Assembly (NCBI RefSeq): GCF_002795265.1
Contig: NZ_CP024870.1
Location: 806,001 to 870,000 of the forward strand
Origin: Spiroplasma clarkii
Lineage (GTDB): Bacteria > Bacillota_I > Bacilli_A > Mycoplasmatales > Mycoplasmataceae
Reading direction: 5' to 3'
DNA: 64,000 nt
A model generated the notes under the pieces. It was not told where the DNA came from, ran no database searches, and saw only the letters and a program-made list of their open reading frames with translations. Shown here piece by piece: positions 24,447-44,680 of this stretch. Position numbers and translations under genes: made by a program. Position 1 is the stretch's first letter. Every line of letters starts with the position of its first letter.

Positions 24447-27400
24447 CTAGTCGTTGATCCCTTCAATAATTTGTTCTTCACGACTCACTTTTAAGTTATT
24501 GATAAAGTGCTTACGGCTTAAGTGGTTTCTAATTCTAATTTGTTCTAAGGCCATTCAAATTGGTAAACAAATTAGCAACATTACTGCAATTGAGGCCACA
24601 ACTGCAATTACTATTGCAATTCCGATTGTAGCAATTGGTGTAAAGGCAATTAAGAACAACACTGCAAAGGCAATATAAATTAAACCTACAAGAATTGAAC
24701 GTTTTAAACCATATTTAAAGGTTTGCACCATAACTTCTTTCAAGTAGTTATTTTTACGAGAAACTCGATTAATTTGAATCTTAGTTTCACGTTTTTTATC
24801 TTTATAACTTAATCATTTTTCATGTTTGTATTTTTTAAAATCATTTTTAATTTTAACAATATCTTCTTTGGTTAAGTTATCTGCTTTTAAGGCAACTTTT
24901 TTCTCAGTTTTTTGTACAAAGATTTCATCACGAATCATTCTTTTTAGATTCTTTAATTCAGCAGATAAACTAATTTCTTCTTTGAAGAATTGTTTTAGAC
25001 TATTTTCATCTTTTGTAGCAATCAAGGAGCGCGACTTCCCAAACACACTCATCATTGATGTGACCATTACCAACATACTAATTGAAATAGCCACAAGTAC
25101 TCCTACTCCAAAACTCAAGTGTAAGGCAATAACTGCAGCAAGTGTAATTGCTGGTACTAAGACAATTCCAATTACCATAGCAATATAATATGTTCACTTA
25201 AATCTAATTAGGATGTAAATTAACATAACTAGGACAATTGATAATAATGCATATGAAATTTGCACTGACATTCTTAAGATTGTTGAAGCACGAATTTGTT
25301 TGGTAATGTATCCACCATTTTCACTAACAGCTTGTTCACGGTTTAAACCACCAACCACTGTAAATAGATTTCTAATTGCTTGTGATTGGGTTGAGTTAGT
25401 AGTCATTACAGCTAAGGTAACTCAAGGTACATCTTCGTCAGAAGTACTTCCAGATTGGAAAGTGAAACTTGAACCATGAGAAACAATAAATTTATGATTC
25501 TGATACTGACGACGAGTACTCATATTTGACAACTGTGCCACTTGGTTTACATAACTTGGGTTGTTAAATAAAATTGTTAAGAAACTTGAAACTGTATATT
25601 CAATGCTAATTTCTGAATTAGTTCCTGTACTTTGATTTGAAAGCAAGTCAACTAGTTCACTTCTTAAACTCTCATCAATATCAGTACGGTTAGGTACATT
25701 TTCAATGGCAGTATAAACTTGATCTAACTGGTTACCTCAAATTGTGTATTCTGTTCTATTACCAAAAGTATTATCATAATTTGGTCCAAATAGACCCCCA
25801 ATTACTGCAGCAACTGCAGTTAGTGAAGCAATAACAATAGCAAAGATTTTTGAACCACGTTTAATTTGTTTTTCAACAACATTGGTTTTTACTTTGGCAT
25901 TTGTTGATAGTAGAATTTCACTTTCAGCTTCAATGATTTCTTGAGTATCATCTGCTAAAATGAATTTTAATTCTTCAATCTTTAAATCCAATTTGAAAAC
26001 CTTTTTTGGATGTTTGGTTTTTTTTGTTTCTAATTTTGTAATTTTTTTTGTAATTCTTGATTTATATTTTTCTGTTAATTTTAAGTTTTTAGCTTTAACT
26101 TTTTCATCAATTTTGCTAATTTTTTGTTCTATAACTGCAATTTTGTTAGTGACTACACTAATTTTTGCAGCATTTTTGCTTGTAGCATTATTTAAATTGT
26201 CTAACTTAACTCTTAGAGTTCTTAGTTTATAAGCTAATCAAGCATTATTTTGATTGGCAAAATCTGTGTTTAAGGCAAATAATGCTGCTTTATTTTCAAA
26301 CATATTTGTAGCAATAACTAATTTATAAAGGATTAATCCAAACAATAAACCAATTACAAATGAGAAAGCAACTCCCATTAAGACTAGAATAGCAAATGAT
26401 TGAATGGCATTAGTTGAAATTCAAAACATTGAAATTGCTGGAATAATCAAGGCCACTAACATATCTACTGCCAAAGTAATTGTTTCTTTCACGGCAATAC
26501 TGTAACTCACCTTTGTATTTCTCTGCTTTAAGAAAATGTTAAACTTGGTTTGTTCAAAAATCATTGAAAAGATTTCTAGATTAATTGCTGTAATAATAAA
26601 CACTGCGAAGATTGCTTCTGCACCTAAGGTTAAACTAAATCATGTTGAAGCCAGTAATGTGAGCATTGTAATTGCACTAATGATGGCAAGCATAATAATT
26701 CCCATAACTCTGTAAGCTATTAAAGCATAAATTAAGAGCGCTAAGACAAAACATAGTAGAAAGGCTGCAGAAACTCACAACATTATTGATGTAATTGTGG
26801 CTCCAATTGCTGAAATGTTATTAACTGTAAAAACAAAACCTCTGGTTGATGCATTGAAAATAGCGGCACCAATTCTTGCCTTTGACTCAGGCTGATTTGA
26901 ATACTCAATAATTAATTTATTGTCTCTAATATATGAGTTTGCTAATAAAATGTTTCCATTAGTAGATCCTGCACTTTTAAAGATGGTTCCATCCATTAAA
27001 AAGTAACTTTGAATTTTTGTTTCCATTATTTTTGAATTTTGAGTTCAACTATTAATTGAATCACGCACAAATTTAACCATGAAAGTATTTATTCTTTCAA
27101 AAACATCACGAATTACACCTAATTCAATTTGAGAAACCCCACCAGAACCAGATAAGGCATTTCCATTAACATTCTGAGAATATTTTCCTCCAGCTGCAAA
27201 ATCATCAGTTGTAGCATTGGGGTCATAAACATATTTTGAAGTATCTGAAACATATTCAAATCCATTATTTAAATAGTTGGTGAAGGTAGTAACAAATCCT
27301 TCACGATCTGATGCAATATTTAAAACATTGACATAACGGTATTGTTCAACATTACCTGTACTACGTTCTAAATATCTTCCAATAAATAGGTCATCAATAA

Positions 27401-28199
27401 CTTTTTTTTGATTTTCATCTAGTTTATTATCACCAGCAGCATTATAACTAATTTTAAGTGTTCTAATTACATTGTCATAAAAACTTTCAACTCTTGTTCT
27501 TAGGTCATTGCCTGGGACTAAGTTATATCAGTTTCTTATGTCATTATAAAGTCCATCTGCATCAATCATAATTGTTGATGAAATTTCACTTTCACTTTCA
27601 CCAAATAATGAAGTGAAAGTTTCACCATTTAAATCAAATTCAATAGCTGGATTTTTACCAGCATTGCTTGTGATAGAAGTTGATTTTGCTGAAGTGAAGT
27701 ATTCATTAATACCTTTTCTAGTGTCATCAGTAAACTGCATGTCCTTTAGATCTTTATTAAGAATAATGGCTCCACCATTTCTTTGAATTTGGTTTTTAAA
27801 TTCAGTTTCACTATTGTATGCATCAATTGGTGACAAAACTTTTAAATAGTTTGCCCCAGCAGTTTCAACAATAATTTGGTTTGTTCCCATTGGGTTTAAA
27901 CGTTGCTCTAAAACTGAAGCAGCTTCACGAGCATCACCATTTGGTTGGTTATTTTGGCTTTCTTTGGCATCAGCACTAATATCACTAACTGCTACTAAAG
28001 CAGAATAATGTCCTTTAAAGTCACTCCCCAATTTGTAGTTTTCTGAAAAGTATTGAGTACTGAAAAATATTCCTGAAATTAATGCCCCTATCATTAATAA
28101 AATAGTGAATATGTTAAAAAAACGCTTAGCTTTAGGTTTAGACCTTTTGGGGTTATTTATGACATCTTTTTGTTGTGTGTTGTCAATCACTTCAACCAC
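24447..28199 (-). CDS. secDF: Fused SecDF protein-export membrane protein
   Basis: A 1250-residue fusion of SecD and SecF, read with many TGA-Trp codons in one uninterrupted frame. SecD part: helix at ~30-50, external domain ~51-475, five more helices to ~640. A Lys-rich cytoplasmic coiled coil (~650-770) links to SecF: helix at ~785-805, external domain to ~925, helices to ~1230, and a second charged insertion at ~1070-1150 between helices. SecDF uses the ion gradient to help SecYEG finish translocation. About 500 residues longer than Bacillus SecDF because of the insertions. The start is GTG, directly after the upstream stop (TAA GTG), so translation is coupled. Confidence 0.93.
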
Positions 28200-32410: not shown

Positions 32411-33949
32411 TTAGAAGTGTGATTTTAAACGAATTGTAACTTTGAATGATCCAACTTTAATTGGGTCGTTGTCATTTCTAGTAATGTCAACCACTGTGTA
32501 TTTTTTCTGATCTGCTTGTGAGTATCCGGAGAACACGATTGGTTGATTTGCTTTTGATTTTGTTGTAATAAAGATTGGTAGTTTAGTTGCTCCAATAGCT
32601 GGAATTTTTCCATAGATAATAATTTTTTCAAATGGAGATTCAACTTCTGCTAATTGTGCATTTAAGAATTTAATAAATTCATTTGCTACTAATTGTGAAC
32701 CATGTTTTCTACTATCAACAAATTCATGAGTGTCATTGTTTGAAATGTAGAATACGATTGGTGCATCAATTGCTACCAATAAGTGTTTTTTATTTACAGT
32801 AGTTCCATCATAAGCATATGCTGATTTATCTTGTGATCTATCTGCAATTAATTTTGAAATATTTTTTGTTACATCTTCAATTGAGTAAATTTTTGCATTT
32901 TTTAAATCATATTTAGCTGATTTATTTCATAACAATTCATCGTCATTTACATGAATATTTTCTAAGAACATCATTTTACGCAATCATTTTTTAGGAGCAT
33001 TTTTTCATTCATCCTCACCTAAAATAACTTTTGATGGTCCTTCTTCTTCAATTTTTGGTTTCATAACTTCAACAATATCTAATGCTTCTGGTTTTTGACC
33101 TTTTTTATCAATTAACATAACTGATGGTCCTAATCCTGAAATAATTGATACTGTATCTTTTTTGAATCTTTTTACTCAAGCGTCATGTTCTAATTCAAAT
33201 AGTTCATTAATAATTTCTAATTCATCATGTGAATTTTTTGTGAAATCAATAATGTAATTTGATGACATTAAGTTTAATAATCTTGCTAATAAGTATTTTA
33301 AAGTATTTGTTGTTTCATAGATTTTAAATTTGTGTAATGGATCATTATCTCATGGAGATAAAGCATTGTTATACATAATTTTCATTGAAACAAAGTTTAC
33401 GTTTGATTTTTTTGAAACTTGAGCAATTGCTCCTGCTTCAGTATCAATTACATCAATTGTTTGACCAAATTTGTCAACCATTTCTTTAAATTGTTTTGAA
33501 TTGTAGATTAACATATCTGCAGTTCCAACAATTCCATCTGATACTCCTAATTTAAAGTTTTTAACTTTACTTACCAATTCTGTGTTGAATGAGAAAGCTT
33601 CAGGTTCATGCACGATTTGTCCATATTTAATATCTTTAAATGGTGTTAGATCTGCATCTCTATAAATAAATTTAGTTGACATAACAGTATCTGTTGTATC
33701 AAATTTGTCATTTGTTGATAAAGCTAAGTCTACATTGAATACAGTTTCTAAAGTTTTGTATTCTTCTAGTAAATAAGTAATTGCCATAGCAGCATTTGCT
33801 TTACCATAACCTATTGTTGCGATAATGAAGAATTTTCCTCTGTATTTAACATGTTGGATAACCATATTTCTTCATCAATATTTTTTAACAGTTTTAACTC
33901 CTAAACGGTCCTTAACTGTAAAGTAAGCGGTCGAAATAATTCCGATCAT
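32411..33949 (-). CDS. MTA/SAH nucleosidase-like domain fused to a long unknown C-terminus
   Basis: A 512-residue protein. Residues ~1-230 align by eye with MTAN (Pfs): TIGYGKANAAMAITYLLE, FIYRDADLTPF, and DTEAGAIAQ with Glu171 at the place of the ribose-binding Glu174. The catalytic Asp197 is replaced by Asn194 (IMYNNAL) and no Glu is found at the place of Glu12 (start MIGIISTAYF). The remaining ~280 residues are unlike any family I know. Start at 33949 is six bases after GAGGTGA. The domain may bind a nucleoside without cleaving it. Promoter at 34031-34060. Confidence 0.75.
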
Positions 33950-34030
33950 TCTCTGTCACCTCATATTTTCTGTTTTTTAACCTTTATCATCAAGCCTAAA
34001 ATTAATAACTCAAGATAAAGACTACATTTA

Positions 34031-36476: not shown

Positions 36477-37339
36477 TTACAACTTTATTCTCACATAATT
36501 GTAAAATTTTTGATATAAACTTGCATTTAGCTGATACTCAGCAAGTCCTTTATAACAGTAATTTTCTTTTAAGCATTCTCTTTTAAAAACTGATCAAAAC
36601 CCTTCAATCCAACCATTATCTGTAGACTTGGCTATTCTTGACATGCTTGGAATCAAATTAAAGTACATTAGCATCAACTTATAATTATATGCTTTAAATT
36701 CAGAACCATTATCTGAGTGTATTACACTGTTTGGCAAGAAGACACCAAATTCATCAGTCATTTTTAGAAATGATTTTTCTACAAGTTGATTCCCTTTATT
36801 TTTTTCTGTTACTAAACCAAAGATTTTTTTCATTTTAATATGATAAAAACCACAGGTATAGTATCTTTCACCATTGAATTCCTTTTCTGTTATGTCTACT
36901 GAAAAAACATCACCATACTTATCAAAATTTTCAGGATCAGTTAACAAGTTTGGGTATTTACCAACCTTTTCAGGTTTTGCTACCTTATTTTTTCATTTCA
37001 CATGATTATTGGTGGAGATGCTTCTCATTTTAAAGTATCTCAATATTTTTTTATGTGATGACTTAGCTATCCCCTTAGTGAGCAAATCTATTGCAATTCT
37101 TTTACAACCATAGGTTTTTCCTGAATCAATAAAGCTCTGCTCAATATTTAAATAAAAATCATGATCATAATATCTTACCCTAGGTTTCCCTTGCTTCACT
37201 CATTCATAGTATGTACTTTTTGGAAGTTGAGCAATTTTTAATAAGCCATTTTTAGGTATTTTGAATTCATTGTAGATAAATTCCTCAACAACTAAGCATT
37301 TAATTATATTAAGCTCCCATTTAACTACTTTTTTTTACT
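36477..37339 (-). CDS. IS150-like transposase OrfB (frameshift product)
   Basis: About 285 residues, open from the shift site near 37335 to the stop at 36477, with TGA as Trp. It has the HTH_21-like region (YGCKRIAIDLL) and the integrase core with the three acidic residues in FSVDITEK, HSDNGSEF and GWIEGFW. It lacks its own good start and is made as a fusion OrfAB by -1 frameshifting at the A8 run. The element therefore looks functional. Confidence 0.85.
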
Positions 37340-37621
37340 TATCAGGGCCTCAATTCTTTTTCACATTTCATTTCTAGTTTCTAATTCGGCATTTTTCTTC
37401 TTCAGTTCTTTAACTTCATTTCTTAAAATTATTAGTTCTTCTTTATCAGCTGAATTTGGTGCCCCAAGACCATCAATTCCAGATTGATCATACTTTTTAC
37501 ACCAATTTAAAAGTGTTTGATCTGAGATGCCATAACTTTTAACAAAATTCTTGGCCTTTGTCTTGCTCTCTCTAAATTTTAAAATTATTTTTTCTTTTTG
37601 CTTTGCTGAGTAATGTCCCAT
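37325..37621 (-). CDS. IS150-like OrfA
   Basis: A 98-residue DNA-binding protein: N-terminal helix-turn-helix (residues ~7-50, YGISDQTLLNWCKKY) followed by a leucine-zipper-like coiled coil (ELIILRNEVKELKKKNAELE). It stops inside the A-rich shift site (AGT AAA AAA AAG TAG), where a -1 slip joins it to OrfB. Start at 37621 with AAAGAGG. Confidence 0.88.
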
Positions 37622-37719: not shown

Positions 37720-37820
37720 CAGATAAAAAAATAATTATATTTTGAAATTAATTTTAATTTTTCCTAGCCAGTGTTATTTTTCATAAAATCAGTTTTTACT
37801 TTTAACATTGAAAGTTTTAA

Positions 37821-37844
37821 AAAAACAGACTCTAGTCTGTTTTT
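37821..37844 (-). terminator. Terminator of the ravA-viaA-like operon
   Basis: AAAAACAGAC / GTCTGTTTTT hairpin overlapping the last stop of the operon. Confidence 0.8.
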
Positions 37845-38194
37845 AAAATATCTAACACTAATACTGATTCTAATTCAACCATTCCTGAATATAATTTTCC
37901 AAAATGATTTTTATTTTCTAAATCAACTGAGCTAATTAATAAATTAACTTCACGGTTGTCAATCATCCCAAACAACATTGGGGCTGTGACTAATTTTTCA
38001 CATTGGTGTTTTGAAAAAAACAGTGGATCTGATTCTGCTAAAATCCCATATTCAATTCTACTAAAATAACCATATCCTGAAATTTTGGCATCAATAATGA
38101 CATACTCACGCACAACATTATGTAAAATAGTAATTACATCTTCATCTTTTGAAAGATAAACTACTAAAAGATTTCCTTTTTCTCTTATTTCCAT
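37832..38194 (-). CDS. PPC (DUF296)-like domain protein
   Basis: A 120-residue single-domain protein. The pattern DVITILHNVVREYVIIDAKI followed by SGYGYFSRIEYGIL resembles the PPC/DUF296 fold, in which a ligand or metal site is formed in a trimer; the match is by eye and of middling strength. Its ATG follows the viaA-like TAA directly, so it is translationally coupled to it. Its partner role with the AAA+/VWA pair is unknown. Confidence 0.62.
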   Translation of the reverse strand: MEIREKGNLLVVYLSKDEDVITILHNVVREYVIIDAKISGYGYFSRIEYGILAESDPLFFSKHQCEKLVTAPMLFGMIDNREVNLLISSVDLENKNHFGKLYSGMVELESVLVLDILKTD

Positions 38195-39892
38195 TTAAAT
38201 GATATCCTCCGCATTTCCATATAGTTGTGAACGTTTCTCTTCAAGTTTTTTTGCTTTTTCTTTTTCTTTTGTCTTAGCTTGCTCCATTTTTTTGAATTTT
38301 TTACTATCAGTATGCACAGGACGCATTCTTTTTTTATCTCTAACTTTATTAAGGTCTGCAATTTGTTCATCTCGATAGGCTGCTTCTTCATCTTTTAATT
38401 CTCTTAAATCTCTTAAAGTTTCATTAAGTGATTTAACAATCTGTTGTGTTGCAAAAGGATCGTTGGGATCATAATACATAACATTATCAAAAACTTCTTG
38501 AGTTTCAACATTAGGCATTGTTCCAACCACTAGTGAATGAAACCTGTTGTAGTTTTCCTTTAACTCATTGACCAAAGCTCGGGTTGAATCAGGAATAGTG
38601 TCCATCATAAAATCTGAAATCATTAATAAATCTGCTCTTTTAAAATTTTCAGTTTTCATTTTGTCAATTACTTTTTGAAAAGCAGGTTTGGCATTAGTTT
38701 TTCCATAAAATGATTTTGCCAAAAACTCTAACATTTTTTTGATATTAACATTAAGTCCATCAATTGTAAATTCTTCAACATCTTGATTGGCAAAATTAAC
38801 AAAAACTATATCTCTGTGTTCTTTTAAAGCAACTTTTGCAACCGCAATTGCCAAGGCCTTGGCAATGTATTCTCCTGCCCCTTCCATTGAACTTGAAGTG
38901 TCAATACAAATAATAAATTTACCTTGTTCTAATGGGATTGGAGCTTCATATTCAACTTCTTCCATTTCATGTTCAATGATTGATTCTTGTGATTCAAATA
39001 AAAATGATTGTAGCTGAGATTCCACATATTTTTTGTAAAACACAATTTCAAGTTCTGGATCAAAAAGATTGGCAAGTTCCATAGGGAGTAATCTTTCAAT
39101 ATCTTTTGAAATAGTGACCCCCACTAGTTCTTCTGGGTTGTAAGGTAATTTTACAAATGTTGGATAAGTGGTAATTTGTTCAGTAATGTTTATTTCCATT
39201 AAATCATCTTCACCATTTAAGCGACCTAAAAGTTGAGCTATGGTTAAGATACTGGGATCTTTATATAGAAACTCGGCAAAACGGGAAATTGATTCAATAT
39301 TTTGGTTTTTTAACTCATCTTCAATGTTGGCAAGTTTCCCAAATACATCATACATAGTTTTATAAATTCTAGCATACTTTGTATAATTTTTGATAATAGC
39401 ATAAATTTCAACTAAATAGTTATAACGTAAGTCTTCAACAGTTTTTAAACGAAAATCAATAATTCTTTTTGTTAACATGAAAGTTCAAGTTTTAAAAAAA
39501 TCTGTTAGTCAATCTCGATCTTTTAATTCTATGTAACCATTATCAATTTTTCAACGCATGGTGTCAATGTAAGTGCTAAAGGGTGAATCAAATTCTTCTA
39601 ATTTTTTTTGAACAAGATTTAGATTTTTGGCAAAATCAACTTCATCAAATTTATCTGAAATAAAATTATAATAAATGATTTCCTTACGAATTGGATCAGG
39701 AAGTTTAATTTGACTAATTGTAGATAATTTTGGGGCAGAGTAAAAACCATTGATTTTGTCGTCAAGTTGTTCTGCAGCATACTCATGACTTTTTTTAAAC
39801 TCAATGAAATCACTGTTATGAAGGTCTTTTTGACGAAGCTTCTCAATTTCTTTTTTAATTTGATTAGCTGGTTGTTCTAAATCAAAGTTCAT
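38195..39892 (-). CDS. viaA: ViaA-like VWA-domain protein
   Basis: A 565-residue protein, one frame when TGA is Trp (the N-terminal 138 residues are joined through TGA codons near 39551-39490). The N-terminal helical domain is followed by a von Willebrand A domain with the MIDAS motif DTSSS (Asp331, Ser333, Ser335), Thr/Asp residues further on (GKTNAKPAF, MISDFMMD), and a basic coiled-coil tail. It lies 25 bases after the RavA-like ATPase, as in the E. coli ravA-viaA operon, and should be its metal-dependent partner or adaptor. Symbol used by similarity. Confidence 0.82.
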
Positions 39893-39917
39893 TTCTTTCA
39901 CCCACTCTTTTTATGTT

Positions 39918-41498
39918 CTAAAAGATAAAGTCATCATCAAAACCAGGTGCAGGTGCAGCTTCTAATTCAGAATTAGCCCTTGACATTGCTGGTGCTTGGT
40001 CCATTTGAGTGTTTTGCTCAATTTGTGGAGTTTGTTTGCCTTTTGGAACTGAATCAAATGCCTCTCCAATTTTTTCATTGTAAATATCTTCAAAGAAGAC
40101 ACAATTCATATTTGTGTATTTTTTATATTCTTTTAGCATTTTTTTTGAAACTTCTTTAACTTGTTGTTCTAGTTCTTCTACTTTTTGAGTCAAACTTGAC
40201 ATTTGGTTATTATATTCACCAGGATTGTCACTTTGAATTTGATAACGTTTGTTTTCATTAATAAGTAAAATTTGATCTGCTTTATTAGCTCTAATTCTAA
40301 ATTTTTGACTACCTAAGTATTTATTTTGTGTTGGACCAAAGTGTAGGTCCACTTCAAATTCTTCACTTGGTAAAGCTTTAACTCGGTTTCAATCTTGTGC
40401 TGAAATGAAGCAAAATTTATAGTTTTCTCCTCCATCTTTAAAATCAACTAAATAATAAACCCCATTCAAATGACCTCTAAAAATATCAGTGTATGGAGTT
40501 AAACGCAAGTATTGTGCTTCAATTTGACTAATTTGAGCATTTAAACTATCAAGATCATTTAACAAGTTATTTTTTTCATTTCTAAATTCTAACCCAAATT
40601 GTTCTAAAAAAGCGCGATAAAAAATGTTTTTGTAACTTGCTTCTTGTTCCTCATTATCTCAAATACAATGAGGGATAACAAATAAATCAGGAATATCTGC
40701 TTCTTTGCGACCATTATAAAAAGCACTAGTTTTCATTAGACCAGCGATTTTTTTTCACCTACGATCAGAAATATATGCTTCACCATGAGTTTCTAAATTC
40801 ATTTTTTTTCTAAAGTAATGAATAAAGTCAAGACATTTACGAGATAGACCAACTTCTTTTGATTGACGCTTTCAAGCTTCTAATTCTGCTACTGAAATTT
40901 GAAGGGTTGGATCAACATCAACATCAAGTGATGATTCCCCATCAAGTAAGTCTTCAAAGTTCTTTTTATCATGCAAACCTTCTGCAATGTAACGAATAAT
41001 AAAGCGGTCAAATAAGGCTTCAAGACCTTCACCTTCTGCAGGTAACTCATTTGAAGCAGAAATTAATAATTTTAAAGGAACTTTAACATCTGTTCCACCA
41101 TTTCTAAAGATTTTTTCATTAATAATTGTTAGCAAGGTATTTTGGATACTTGGTCCTGCTTTTCAAATTTCATCTAAAAACCCAATGTTAGCAGCTGGTA
41201 AGTAACCATCAACAACCCTGACATATTTACCTTCTTTTAATAGTCTTAAGTCAATTGGTCCATAAATTTCTTCAGGTGTTGAAAATTTTGACATTAAATA
41301 CTCAAAATTGGTTCCATTTTTAATAGCAAATTTCATCCTTCTTGAAATCAAAGACTTGGCAATTCCGGGTTTACCAAGCAAAAAAATTGATTCTTCACCA
41401 AGTAGAGCTAGCATTGCCAACCTAAAGATTGTTTCTTTTTCATAAACTTGGTAGGAAATTGCTTCAATAATTTTTTTAATTCTTTCTGTTATGTCCAT
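39918..41498 (-). CDS. ravA: RavA-like MoxR AAA+ ATPase
   Basis: A 526-residue AAA+ protein of the MoxR/RavA branch. Walker A GKPGIAKS at residues 42-49, FSTPEEIYGP, Walker B IGFLDEIWKAGP (Asp109-Glu110), and sensor 1 ASNELP; these fit E. coli RavA closely. The C-terminal half has the RavA-type extra region (residues ~310-450) and an acidic, Gln/Ala/Pro-rich tail. MoxR ATPases act as chaperones that load or remodel partners, usually with a VWA protein, here the next gene. Starts at 41498 after AGAGG. Confidence 0.88.
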
Positions 41499-41561
41499 TT
41501 TTTATACCTCTGCTTTTCAATATTATGATTATAAATCAATATCTTAATTTTAACAAAAAAA

Positions 41562-41595: not shown

Positions 41596-43104
41596 TTAAC
41601 CCTTCTTTTTCTTAGGCACTAACATAATAACTGAAACTGTAATTCCAACCACAGCAGCTACTGAAACTAAAACTATAACAAAGATGAAGAAACTTGATAA
41701 TAGTCCATTACTTGGATTATTTCTAGCAATTCCAAACATCTTCCCTTCATATTTAGAACTTAATGTTGATGCTTGTGAATTATCTTCAGGTCTAAGGACA
41801 TTACGTTTTCCACCAAAACCATCTAGAACATGTCCAAATTCATGAATAATTACTGCAAATTTTTCAGGACTTGATCAAAAACCAAGTTGATATTGGGTGT
41901 TAAATTCTTTTAACAATAAAGCTTTACCCAAAATTACAACATAAGATTCATAAGTTGATGAATTATTACTTAAATATGAGGTTGATGTAACCCCTAAAGT
42001 ACTAGAATCATGACCAACTAGACTATCATCTTCAGCAAAAATTAAAGCACTACACATTCTTTTAAACCATATCTCATTGTTTGCAAATGTATATAAATAA
42101 TTAAACATTCTTAATGTTGACTCTCTTAATTTTTCAGTTGTAGCTTCAGTTCATTTTTCAGTATCACTATTTGTTGAATAATTAAGATATTCGGCTTCAA
42201 TTGCTTGAAAACTATTTGAAAGTCAAATTTGACTTACCCCTGTAACATCTTTAGTATTTTCAGAGAAAAAATTATCCAATGTTGCAAAATCTGCAAAGTG
42301 ATTTGAATTAGCATCTTGAAATAATTGCAAACTATCATCTGAGGCTTTTGTATATGAATCATTAATTCATGTTTCTAAGAAAGGGTAATCAGTTCTCAAT
42401 CAAAGAGATATCTCGAAACTATTTCTTGAAAAATATTGCTCAAAAAAAGAAACAAAATAAGAACTAGTATTTCTTAAATCAAACAGATTATTGCTATACC
42501 CTAACTCAACTGCTCCAGTTGTTGGGGGTTGTTGTAAATTTAAATTGTACTTTGGAGCATCAGCAGCAGCAAATTTACTTTCAACATAAGCTTGAATTGC
42601 TTCACCTCGCACCCCAAAGTTACCTCCATTAGACATTAACCCTGGAAGAATTTCAACAAAAAAGTAATTCAACAATTCTCAACTCTTATTTTTTTGTGCA
42701 TCTGGAGTTAACATTCATTTAATAAATGACTCTGCAAAAAACTCTTGTTTTTTTGAAGAACCATAAAGACTAATGTTAATTGTTGAAGCAATTAATGATT
42801 GCACAAAGACATCTACAGTTGATGGAGAATAGTTATCCAAATCTGCATAAATAGCAGCAATATCTGCATCGCCGTTAATTACTGAGTTGACCAAATAATA
42901 TTTTAAAACAGCTCCATAATACATCAATTCAGTATTATCTGCATCCAATAACTCCTTGTAACCTTCATTAGTAGCATAAGCTGTTTGGTATGAATCAGTA
43001 GTATAAGTTTTTGCCTGAGATTCAGAATAAGTCATTGGTACTAGATTAATTGATCCTCCAATTATTGCTCCAATACCTAGCACTTTTAATATTTTTTTAA
43101 ACAA
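41596..43104 (-). CDS. Exported HExxH metallopeptidase-like protein
   Basis: A 502-residue protein with an N-terminal signal or anchor helix (residues ~5-25), a long external domain, the zinc-binding motif HEFGH at residues 421-425 (His421, Glu422, His425) followed by LDGFGG, and a C-terminal membrane helix (~465-490) ending in a KKKKG tail that should face the cytoplasm. A third ligand may be Glu or Asp further on. It would be a membrane-anchored surface zinc peptidase. The start is taken as TTG (43102-43104), eight bases after AGAGGAG; a GTG nearer that site is too close. Confidence 0.72.
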
Positions 43105-43318
43105 AATTTTCACTCCTCTAATGATTGTGAAACATCTAAAACTCAGCAAATAAAATTTACTTAATCGTAAATTTTTTTTCAAAATAATTTATTTTTTAAT
43201 AGTTTTACTTTCAACAATCATTTTTACTTTTTAATTATTTACAAATCAGATTCCCATCTAATCTGCTTAAATTTTATCATACAATTTATAAAAATTATAA
43301 ATAGTTTTTTTGGTTAAT

Positions 43319-44680
43319 TTATTCAAATAAATCTTCTCTTCTTTTTTTGTATTTTTCTTTTTTGACTTTAGCAATTGATTCTTTAATATGTTTTTTTCTA
43401 ATTTCTTTTTTAACTTTATCAATTTCAGCCTTTCTTTTTTTCTTATAACCTGGTTTAACCTTTTTTTTATGATAACGACTAATTATTTTATTTTCTTCAA
43501 TTACTGCAGGAGCTTGGGGATTAAAACTTTTTTTCTTTTTTGAGTCATTAATTTGGACAAGTTCACTACCAACTAATTTTTTATTGGTAAATTCAATCCC
43601 CATACCTTTCAAAGCATCAATTTGACTTTGATTGGTTGAATTAAATAAAACATAACTTTGTCCCAAGTAGTTGTTACGCCCAGTTCGACCACTACGGTGA
43701 ATGTAGTACTGTAAATCTTTTGGTAAATCAATTGAAATAACATGACTTACTCCCACAATATCAATTCCTCTTGAAGCTACATCACTAGCCACAATTCATT
43801 TGAATTCCATATTTTGGATCCTTTTTTGCATATTGGTACGAGTTCGAGCATCTAAATCTCCATGTAGTTCACCAATGTTTTTAATTCCAAATTCTCTCAA
43901 TCAACTAACAACTTCTGGAACTTGATCTTTTTTGTTAACAAAAATTACCACTAAATATGGATTAATTGCTTCTTTAATGATTTTTAAAACTGCTTTGTTT
44001 TCTTTATCTTTTGTCCAAACTAAAATATGTTCAATATTTTTATTACTTGGTTTATTATCAAGGTTTTCAATAAAAATTGCTCTAGAAAAGTATTTTAGTA
44101 AAAATGGTTTAATAGCATTACTAACTGTTGCTGAAAATAAACTAATAATAGCTTGGCGATTAATTTTTTCAATCATAAAATCCACATCATCAATAAATCC
44201 TAAATCAAATACCATATCACATTCATCTAAAACTACATAATTTGCTGTGGTTAGTTGCAGATAATTTTCTTCATACAAACTTCGCAAACGAGTTGGAGTT
44301 CCTACCACAATCATGGGTTGACTTGTTTTTAAAGCTTCTTGTTGTTTTTTTAAGTCATCTCCCCCAACATATAAAGCCATTGAAGCTTGGGTTTGAAACT
44401 CCAATAAGGTTTTGATATTATCATAAATTTGACGAGCTAGTTCTCTTGTTGGAGTAATAATTAAAAATTGTACTTTAGCCATTGTGTAATCTAAGTTATT
44501 TAAAATTGGCAGTAAAAACGCATGAGTTTTTCCTGTTCCAGTATGAGATTGAGCAATGACTGCTTGGTGTTTTTTTAAATAAGGAATTACTTTAGTTTGA
44601 ATTGAAGTTGGTTCTTGAAAACCAATTTCAACTAAAGCATCATTCAAAAACTTTTTGAAACCAAAATCTGAAAATTTCAT
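43319..44680 (-). CDS. DEAD-box RNA helicase
   Basis: A 453-residue helicase. Q motif (GFQEPTSIQ), motif I HTGTGKT, PTRELA, motif II in the variant form [17 protein letters not shown], and HRSGRTGR are seen in order, followed by a Lys/Arg-rich tail (~residues 370-453) that should bind RNA. It likely helps ribosome assembly or mRNA turnover, like CshB-class helicases. Start at 44680 after AAGGAGG. First gene of a block with trmL behind it. Confidence 0.95.

Follow-up and report, generated by a model that had tools for sequence, protein, structure and literature searches.

The window, a 64,000-nucleotide stretch of the Spiroplasma clarkii genome, carries three consecutive minus-strand genes for a RavA-like MoxR AAA+ ATPase, a ViaA-like VWA protein and a small PPC-domain protein, and this order and linkage are conserved across the genus and into three others. 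Purifying selection constrains the PPC gene, the ATPase is predicted to keep the architecture of RavA, and both NuoD and LdcI are absent from all 20 genomes of the genus. We propose, on evidence that is about evenly balanced, that the trio is a RavA-ViaA-type MoxR/VWA chaperone made as one unit, to which the PPC protein would bind physically as a clade-specific accessory subunit.

There is no settled view of what RavA-ViaA does in general, and the E. coli pair has ties to LdcI, Complex I, fumarate reductase and lipids. A genus that keeps RavA-ViaA without LdcI or Complex I offers a test of the role of this machine when those partners are missing. PPC domains are found in many bacteria and, to our knowledge, have no clear role there; a stable genetic partner provides one that can be tested.

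Gene identities and expression signals

The window (G000:C1:806001-870000) lies on a single contig of 1,560,007 bases, and its genes were read with NCBI table 4 (TGA=Trp); in this reading all three genes are open at the positions below. At 1.56 Mb the genome is large among its relatives, and the first-pass annotation was wrong to call it minimal. The features discussed are as follows.

43319..44680, minus strand: CshA-like DEAD-box helicase, the ancestral upstream neighbour of the trio, with an inserted gene now between
41499..41560, minus strand: promoter and leader candidate before the RavA ATG, TTGTTA-17-TATAAT (10/12) with an AGAGG-like ribosome site, read from the sequence as a consensus match only
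39918..41498, minus strand: RavA-like MoxR AAA+ ATPase, 526 aa in code 4 (NCBIfam, Pfam, profile, AF2 model)
38195..39901, minus strand: ViaA-like protein with a helical N-terminal part, a C-terminal VWA domain with full MIDAS and a charged tail of ~75 residues (NCBIfam, alignment)
38195..38214, minus strand: Shine-Dalgarno-like GCGGAGGA within the 3'-terminal codons of ViaA, followed by its TAA and at once by the PPC ATG (38194), read from the sequence
37832..38194, minus strand: PPC/PCC (DUF296) domain protein, 120 aa, without the HxH...GGH motif (profile against PDB PPC structures, Pfam, motif table)
37817..37845, minus strand: hairpin resembling a terminator (AACAGACTAGAGTCTGTT and a run of T) that spans the PPC stop codon, with a folding energy of -10.1 kcal/mol and z -2.1
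32411..33964, minus strand: PNP_UDP_1 (nucleoside phosphorylase superfamily) protein (Pfam 6.8e-17, own-genome search, synteny)

The earlier description of the first two proteins as a RavA-ViaA-like pair is borne out by both family models and by the predicted structure of the ATPase. The ATPase matches the NCBIfam RavA model (PRK13531) at 1.2e-98 with 331 bits, under the equivalog cut-off of 681, and by this score it is RavA-like and not an equivalog. Its best Pfam match is bpMoxR (1.6e-52), accompanied by AAA_lid_8, and the MoxR AAA+ core motifs GKPGIAKS, FLDEIWK, SASNELP and SDRRWKK, which cover Walker A, Walker B and the sensor motifs, are invariant or nearly so. A profile built from 13 RavA-like proteins of mollicutes matched E. 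coli RavA (3nbx) at 1.1e-107, only over profile positions 3-335, and the LARA region was unrecognisable in sequence by this profile search. In an AF2 model built from 16 sequences (mean pLDDT 74, with parts of the AAA+ core low), the lid is followed by a helix (303-330), strands (335-421) and a returning helix (426-462). The best structural match of the model is 3nbx, with Z 25.9 and rmsd 3.3 over 309 residues spanning 1-486, as compared to Z 12.9 for the next-best protein. The modelled RavA architecture is conserved, with a predicted helix, a beta domain in the LARA position and a second helix.

The ViaA-like gene encodes 568 aa as listed from a GTG, and the conserved Met4 codon, an ATG at 39892, is probably the true start. 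Its NCBIfam ViaA match (4e-67) scores 227.5 bits against an equivalog cut-off of 500, which no genome in the phylum sample reaches. The MIDAS motif DxSxS...T...D is complete, with D334, S336, S338, T402 and D430 invariant. The C-terminal charged tail, 75 residues in the window protein (~495-568), takes the place of the short amphipathic helix with which E. coli ViaA binds lipids; it measures 47-75 residues in all PPC-linked proteins versus 5-32 in non-linked ones outside the PPC-linked clade. In E. coli, an arginine-rich C-terminal helix tethers ViaA to anionic lipids and RavA binds PG via LARA (PMC9489729). By analogy with the position of this helix, a membrane- or lipid-related role for the machine of the PPC clade is a reasonable guess.

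The PPC/DUF296 identity of the third protein, as first annotated, is marginal from one sequence and firm from the family profile. On its own the sequence matches Pfam PCC (PF03479) at E 0.18, under the cut-off, while a profile of 26 homologues finds four solved proteins (3htn at 1.5e-4, 2h6l at 1.3e-3, 3hwu and 2p6y), and 25 of the 26 family members match Pfam PCC, the best at 1.2e-10. We take these four to be PPC-domain structures; their entry titles say putative DNA-binding or hypothetical proteins. The residues HxH...GGH, a metal site in canonical PPC proteins, are present in the members from genera g9 and g12 and gone in the window's genus (g1), in g7 and in Spiroplasma sp. TIUS-1 (G036); 3htn and 2h6l have similar residues where they align. 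The motif is common to many PPC-domain members and is not definitive of the domain. Nine close pairs of PPC genes give dN/dS of 0.05-0.16, which indicates purifying selection, and in all nine the PPC dN exceeds that of both neighbour genes. A scan of viral contigs returned no PPC match. A distant genome without RavA-ViaA (G062) encodes a PPC protein of canonical type, with both HxH and GGH, beside a transketolase-like gene (L128:2969-3424).

The PPC ATG directly follows the ViaA TAA, in agreement with the first-pass annotation. Among relatives the ViaA-PPC distance ranges from a 23-nt overlap up to about 20 nt, and the zero gap is particular to the window strain; we dropped the exact gap as an argument since it varies freely. 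Hairpins comparable to that at the PPC stop lie close to the same codon in several relatives, and a stricter terminator scan made no call for the hairpin at 37817..37845. The region holds 48 promoter-like consensus sites versus 36.4 (sd 6.5) in shuffles. Judged from the sequence, the trio probably forms a single transcription unit with its end at PPC, and we infer co-transcription of the three genes and translational coupling of ViaA and PPC.

Conserved linkage, its exceptions and a sister branch

We surveyed 99 relatives. RavA and ViaA were each found in 50 and PPC in 27, or 29 with the profile; the pair is altogether missing from about half of the mollicutes sampled. The three genes are contiguous and in the same order in 25 genomes from g1, g7, g9 and g12, namely all 20 of the genus and G025, G027, G030, G037 and G042. 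Within family f1, RavA-ViaA is present in 26 of 26 genomes with PPC, and a contig scan with the ViaA alignment gave 15 loci, with PPC adjacent only in the Spiroplasma MAG G025. The earlier proposal hinged in part on conserved linkage in relatives, and this linkage is indeed kept; as a statement about mollicutes throughout, it holds in these four genera and fails in a sister RavA-ViaA clade that has no adjacent PPC gene.

Other variants of the genes were seen among these relatives. G027, G030, G037 and G042 (L124:2581-5762, L125, L136, L137) have a second pair, composed of a shorter MoxR (about 400 aa) and a longer VWA protein (about 656 aa), which adjoins a uvrC-like gene. In G052, RavA is split into two overlapping frames of 253 and 245 aa (L131:1932-3409) and ViaA is intact.

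Within the genus the flanks turn over around the trio, which is unbroken in all 20 genomes. The helicase is not directly upstream in 7 of them, and the downstream position is taken by phosphorylase-type genes in 7, another shared cluster in 10 and others in 3. The PNP_UDP_1 gene is the ancestral downstream neighbour of PPC; in the window, IS3 remains and a lipoprotein gene intervene, the IS3-family transposase pieces lying at 36477-37621, just 3' of the PPC gene. The gene inserted between helicase and RavA (41596-43182) encodes a membrane-anchored protein of 528 aa that weakly matches M90 peptidases (HEFGH); G008 and G012 have relatives of it at this position. Elsewhere in the window, a 1250-aa protein (24447-28199) has no Pfam match at E 0.001.

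These neighbourhoods bear on a real rival to the three-part machine, in which PPC is an operon passenger that shares its expression with RavA-ViaA and works alone, perhaps with the neighbouring nucleoside-phosphorylase-like protein. For example, TIUS-1 has PPC at the old site between the helicase and phosphorylase genes, in the order SpoU methyltransferase, helicase, PPC, phosphorylase, without RavA-ViaA at that site, and the phosphorylase gene follows PPC in 7 genomes of the genus and in g7, g9 and g12. However, the phosphorylase is displaced or non-adjacent in 13 of the 20 genus genomes, including that of the window, while PPC is with ViaA in every one. We regard the passenger role as possible, with some doubt.

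In a joint tree of RavA and ViaA, all PPC-linked pairs and that of G024 group together, separate from the Spiroplasma pairs without PPC, where TIUS-1 falls. Since the PPC-linked pairs form one clade, the linkage represents a single origin passed on by descent, and shared ancestry confounds the ViaA tail with PPC. Two genomes show that the parts can separate. In G024, RavA and ViaA are about 198 kb apart on opposite strands and PPC is absent, with the long ViaA tail kept; in TIUS-1, a RavA-ViaA pair of the tail-less sister type lies about 100 kb from PPC. They are the best arguments against an obligate three-part machine, which they weaken. The idea that PPC docks on the ViaA tail is also weakened by them, as one has the tail and no PPC and the other PPC and no tail.

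In the other branch of Spiroplasma (phoeniceum, poulsonii, ixodetis, TIUS-1) RavA and ViaA are likewise adjacent, with RavA 44-48% and ViaA 33-38% identical, but the pairs lack an adjacent PPC gene, have a short ViaA tail and carry a conserved membrane-protein gene directly upstream of RavA. The product of this gene is hydrophobic, of ~206-249 aa, and is encoded upstream of RavA in 16 loci across three families (among them L118:1161-1829, L119, L121, L122 and L115), with no significant Pfam match. A search that had no positive control returned no match to the gene in 20 genomes of the window's genus. This membrane-type protein may be a partner in that branch. Citri-type genomes have a dUTPase_2 gene after ViaA, which overlaps the ViaA end in L118 (L118:4963-5472).

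Possible roles of the PPC protein and its partners

In the proposed mechanism, RavA would be a hexameric AAA+ motor and ViaA a VWA adaptor that engages the motor and uses MIDAS to engage a target. The PPC protein would be made right after ViaA, in tune with ViaA synthesis, and would most likely bind ViaA or the client and modulate targeting. We give a physical three-part machine an even chance at best. A more specific version is tentative: PPC, having lost the canonical histidines, would now be a dedicated ViaA adaptor of a three-component chaperone that acts on a non-respiratory client, possibly the membrane, in these wall-less bacteria. When ViaA and PPC were modelled as one read-through chain (code 4, TAA=Q), PPC had no aligned homologues in the input and stayed unfolded at a pLDDT of about 25, and no contact was predicted.

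PPC could also be the client itself, remodelled or loaded by RavA-ViaA in the way that NorQ-NorD and CbbQ-CbbO act on targets encoded alongside them. MoxR/VWA pairs can adjoin the genes of their targets, as in the nor operon (PMC9976466), and the deepest PPC members, in g9 and g12, retain the HxH...GGH residues. These residues are gone in the genus, g7 and TIUS-1, which excludes metal loading as a present role there, though the linkage persists in the genus and g7; moreover, G024 lost PPC and keeps both RavA and ViaA. We consider this role improbable. Least probable of all, in our view, is a regulatory role in which PPC binds DNA or RNA and controls its own operon or RNA metabolism. Plant AT-hook transcription factors do contain PPC domains (e.g. 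PMC4209074), and RNA-related genes (helicase, methyltransferase) are nearby. However, domain profile searches of the 120-aa protein found a bare domain with no AT-hook or helix-turn-helix match, and the adjoining RNA genes are often displaced.

The first-pass annotation is also supported in its statement that the respiratory complexes linked to RavA-ViaA in E. coli are missing. None of the 20 genus genomes has NuoD of Complex I, for which the controls worked, and LdcI (PF01276), which was present in the E. coli control, is likewise absent in all 20. No full-length FrdA match was found in the genus genomes, where FAD_binding_2 matches cover only the first ~40 positions, the nucleotide-binding start. 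As NuoD and LdcI are missing, some other protein, or else the membrane itself, must be the client, and we infer that it differs from the E. coli targets.

Comparison with known systems

The trio resembles E. coli RavA-ViaA in gene order, in a MoxR AAA+ ATPase of RavA architecture and in a ViaA-type VWA protein with MIDAS. In contrast, the window proteins fall far under the equivalog cut-offs (331/681 and 227/500 bits), a third PPC gene and a long charged ViaA tail are added, and the genome has no LdcI or NuoD.

The combination of MoxR, VWA and a third conserved component also recalls the MoxR-vWA ternary systems of the VMAP, iSTAND, FtsH and beta-propeller types, and bpMoxR, the best Pfam match of the window ATPase, belongs to this likeness (PMC7159879). 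In the window, however, the third component is PPC and no effector domains were seen; that paper names neither PPC nor DUF296. The literature searched gave nothing relevant on MoxR in Spiroplasma or on MoxR with DUF296.

The stand-alone prokaryotic PPC proteins (3htn, 2h6l, 3hwu, 2p6y) have the same domain by profile, whereas the window protein is shorter, lacks HxH...GGH genus-wide and is coupled to RavA-ViaA. The RavA-ViaA part of the locus is a divergent form of a known system, and its stable PPC partner is the new element.
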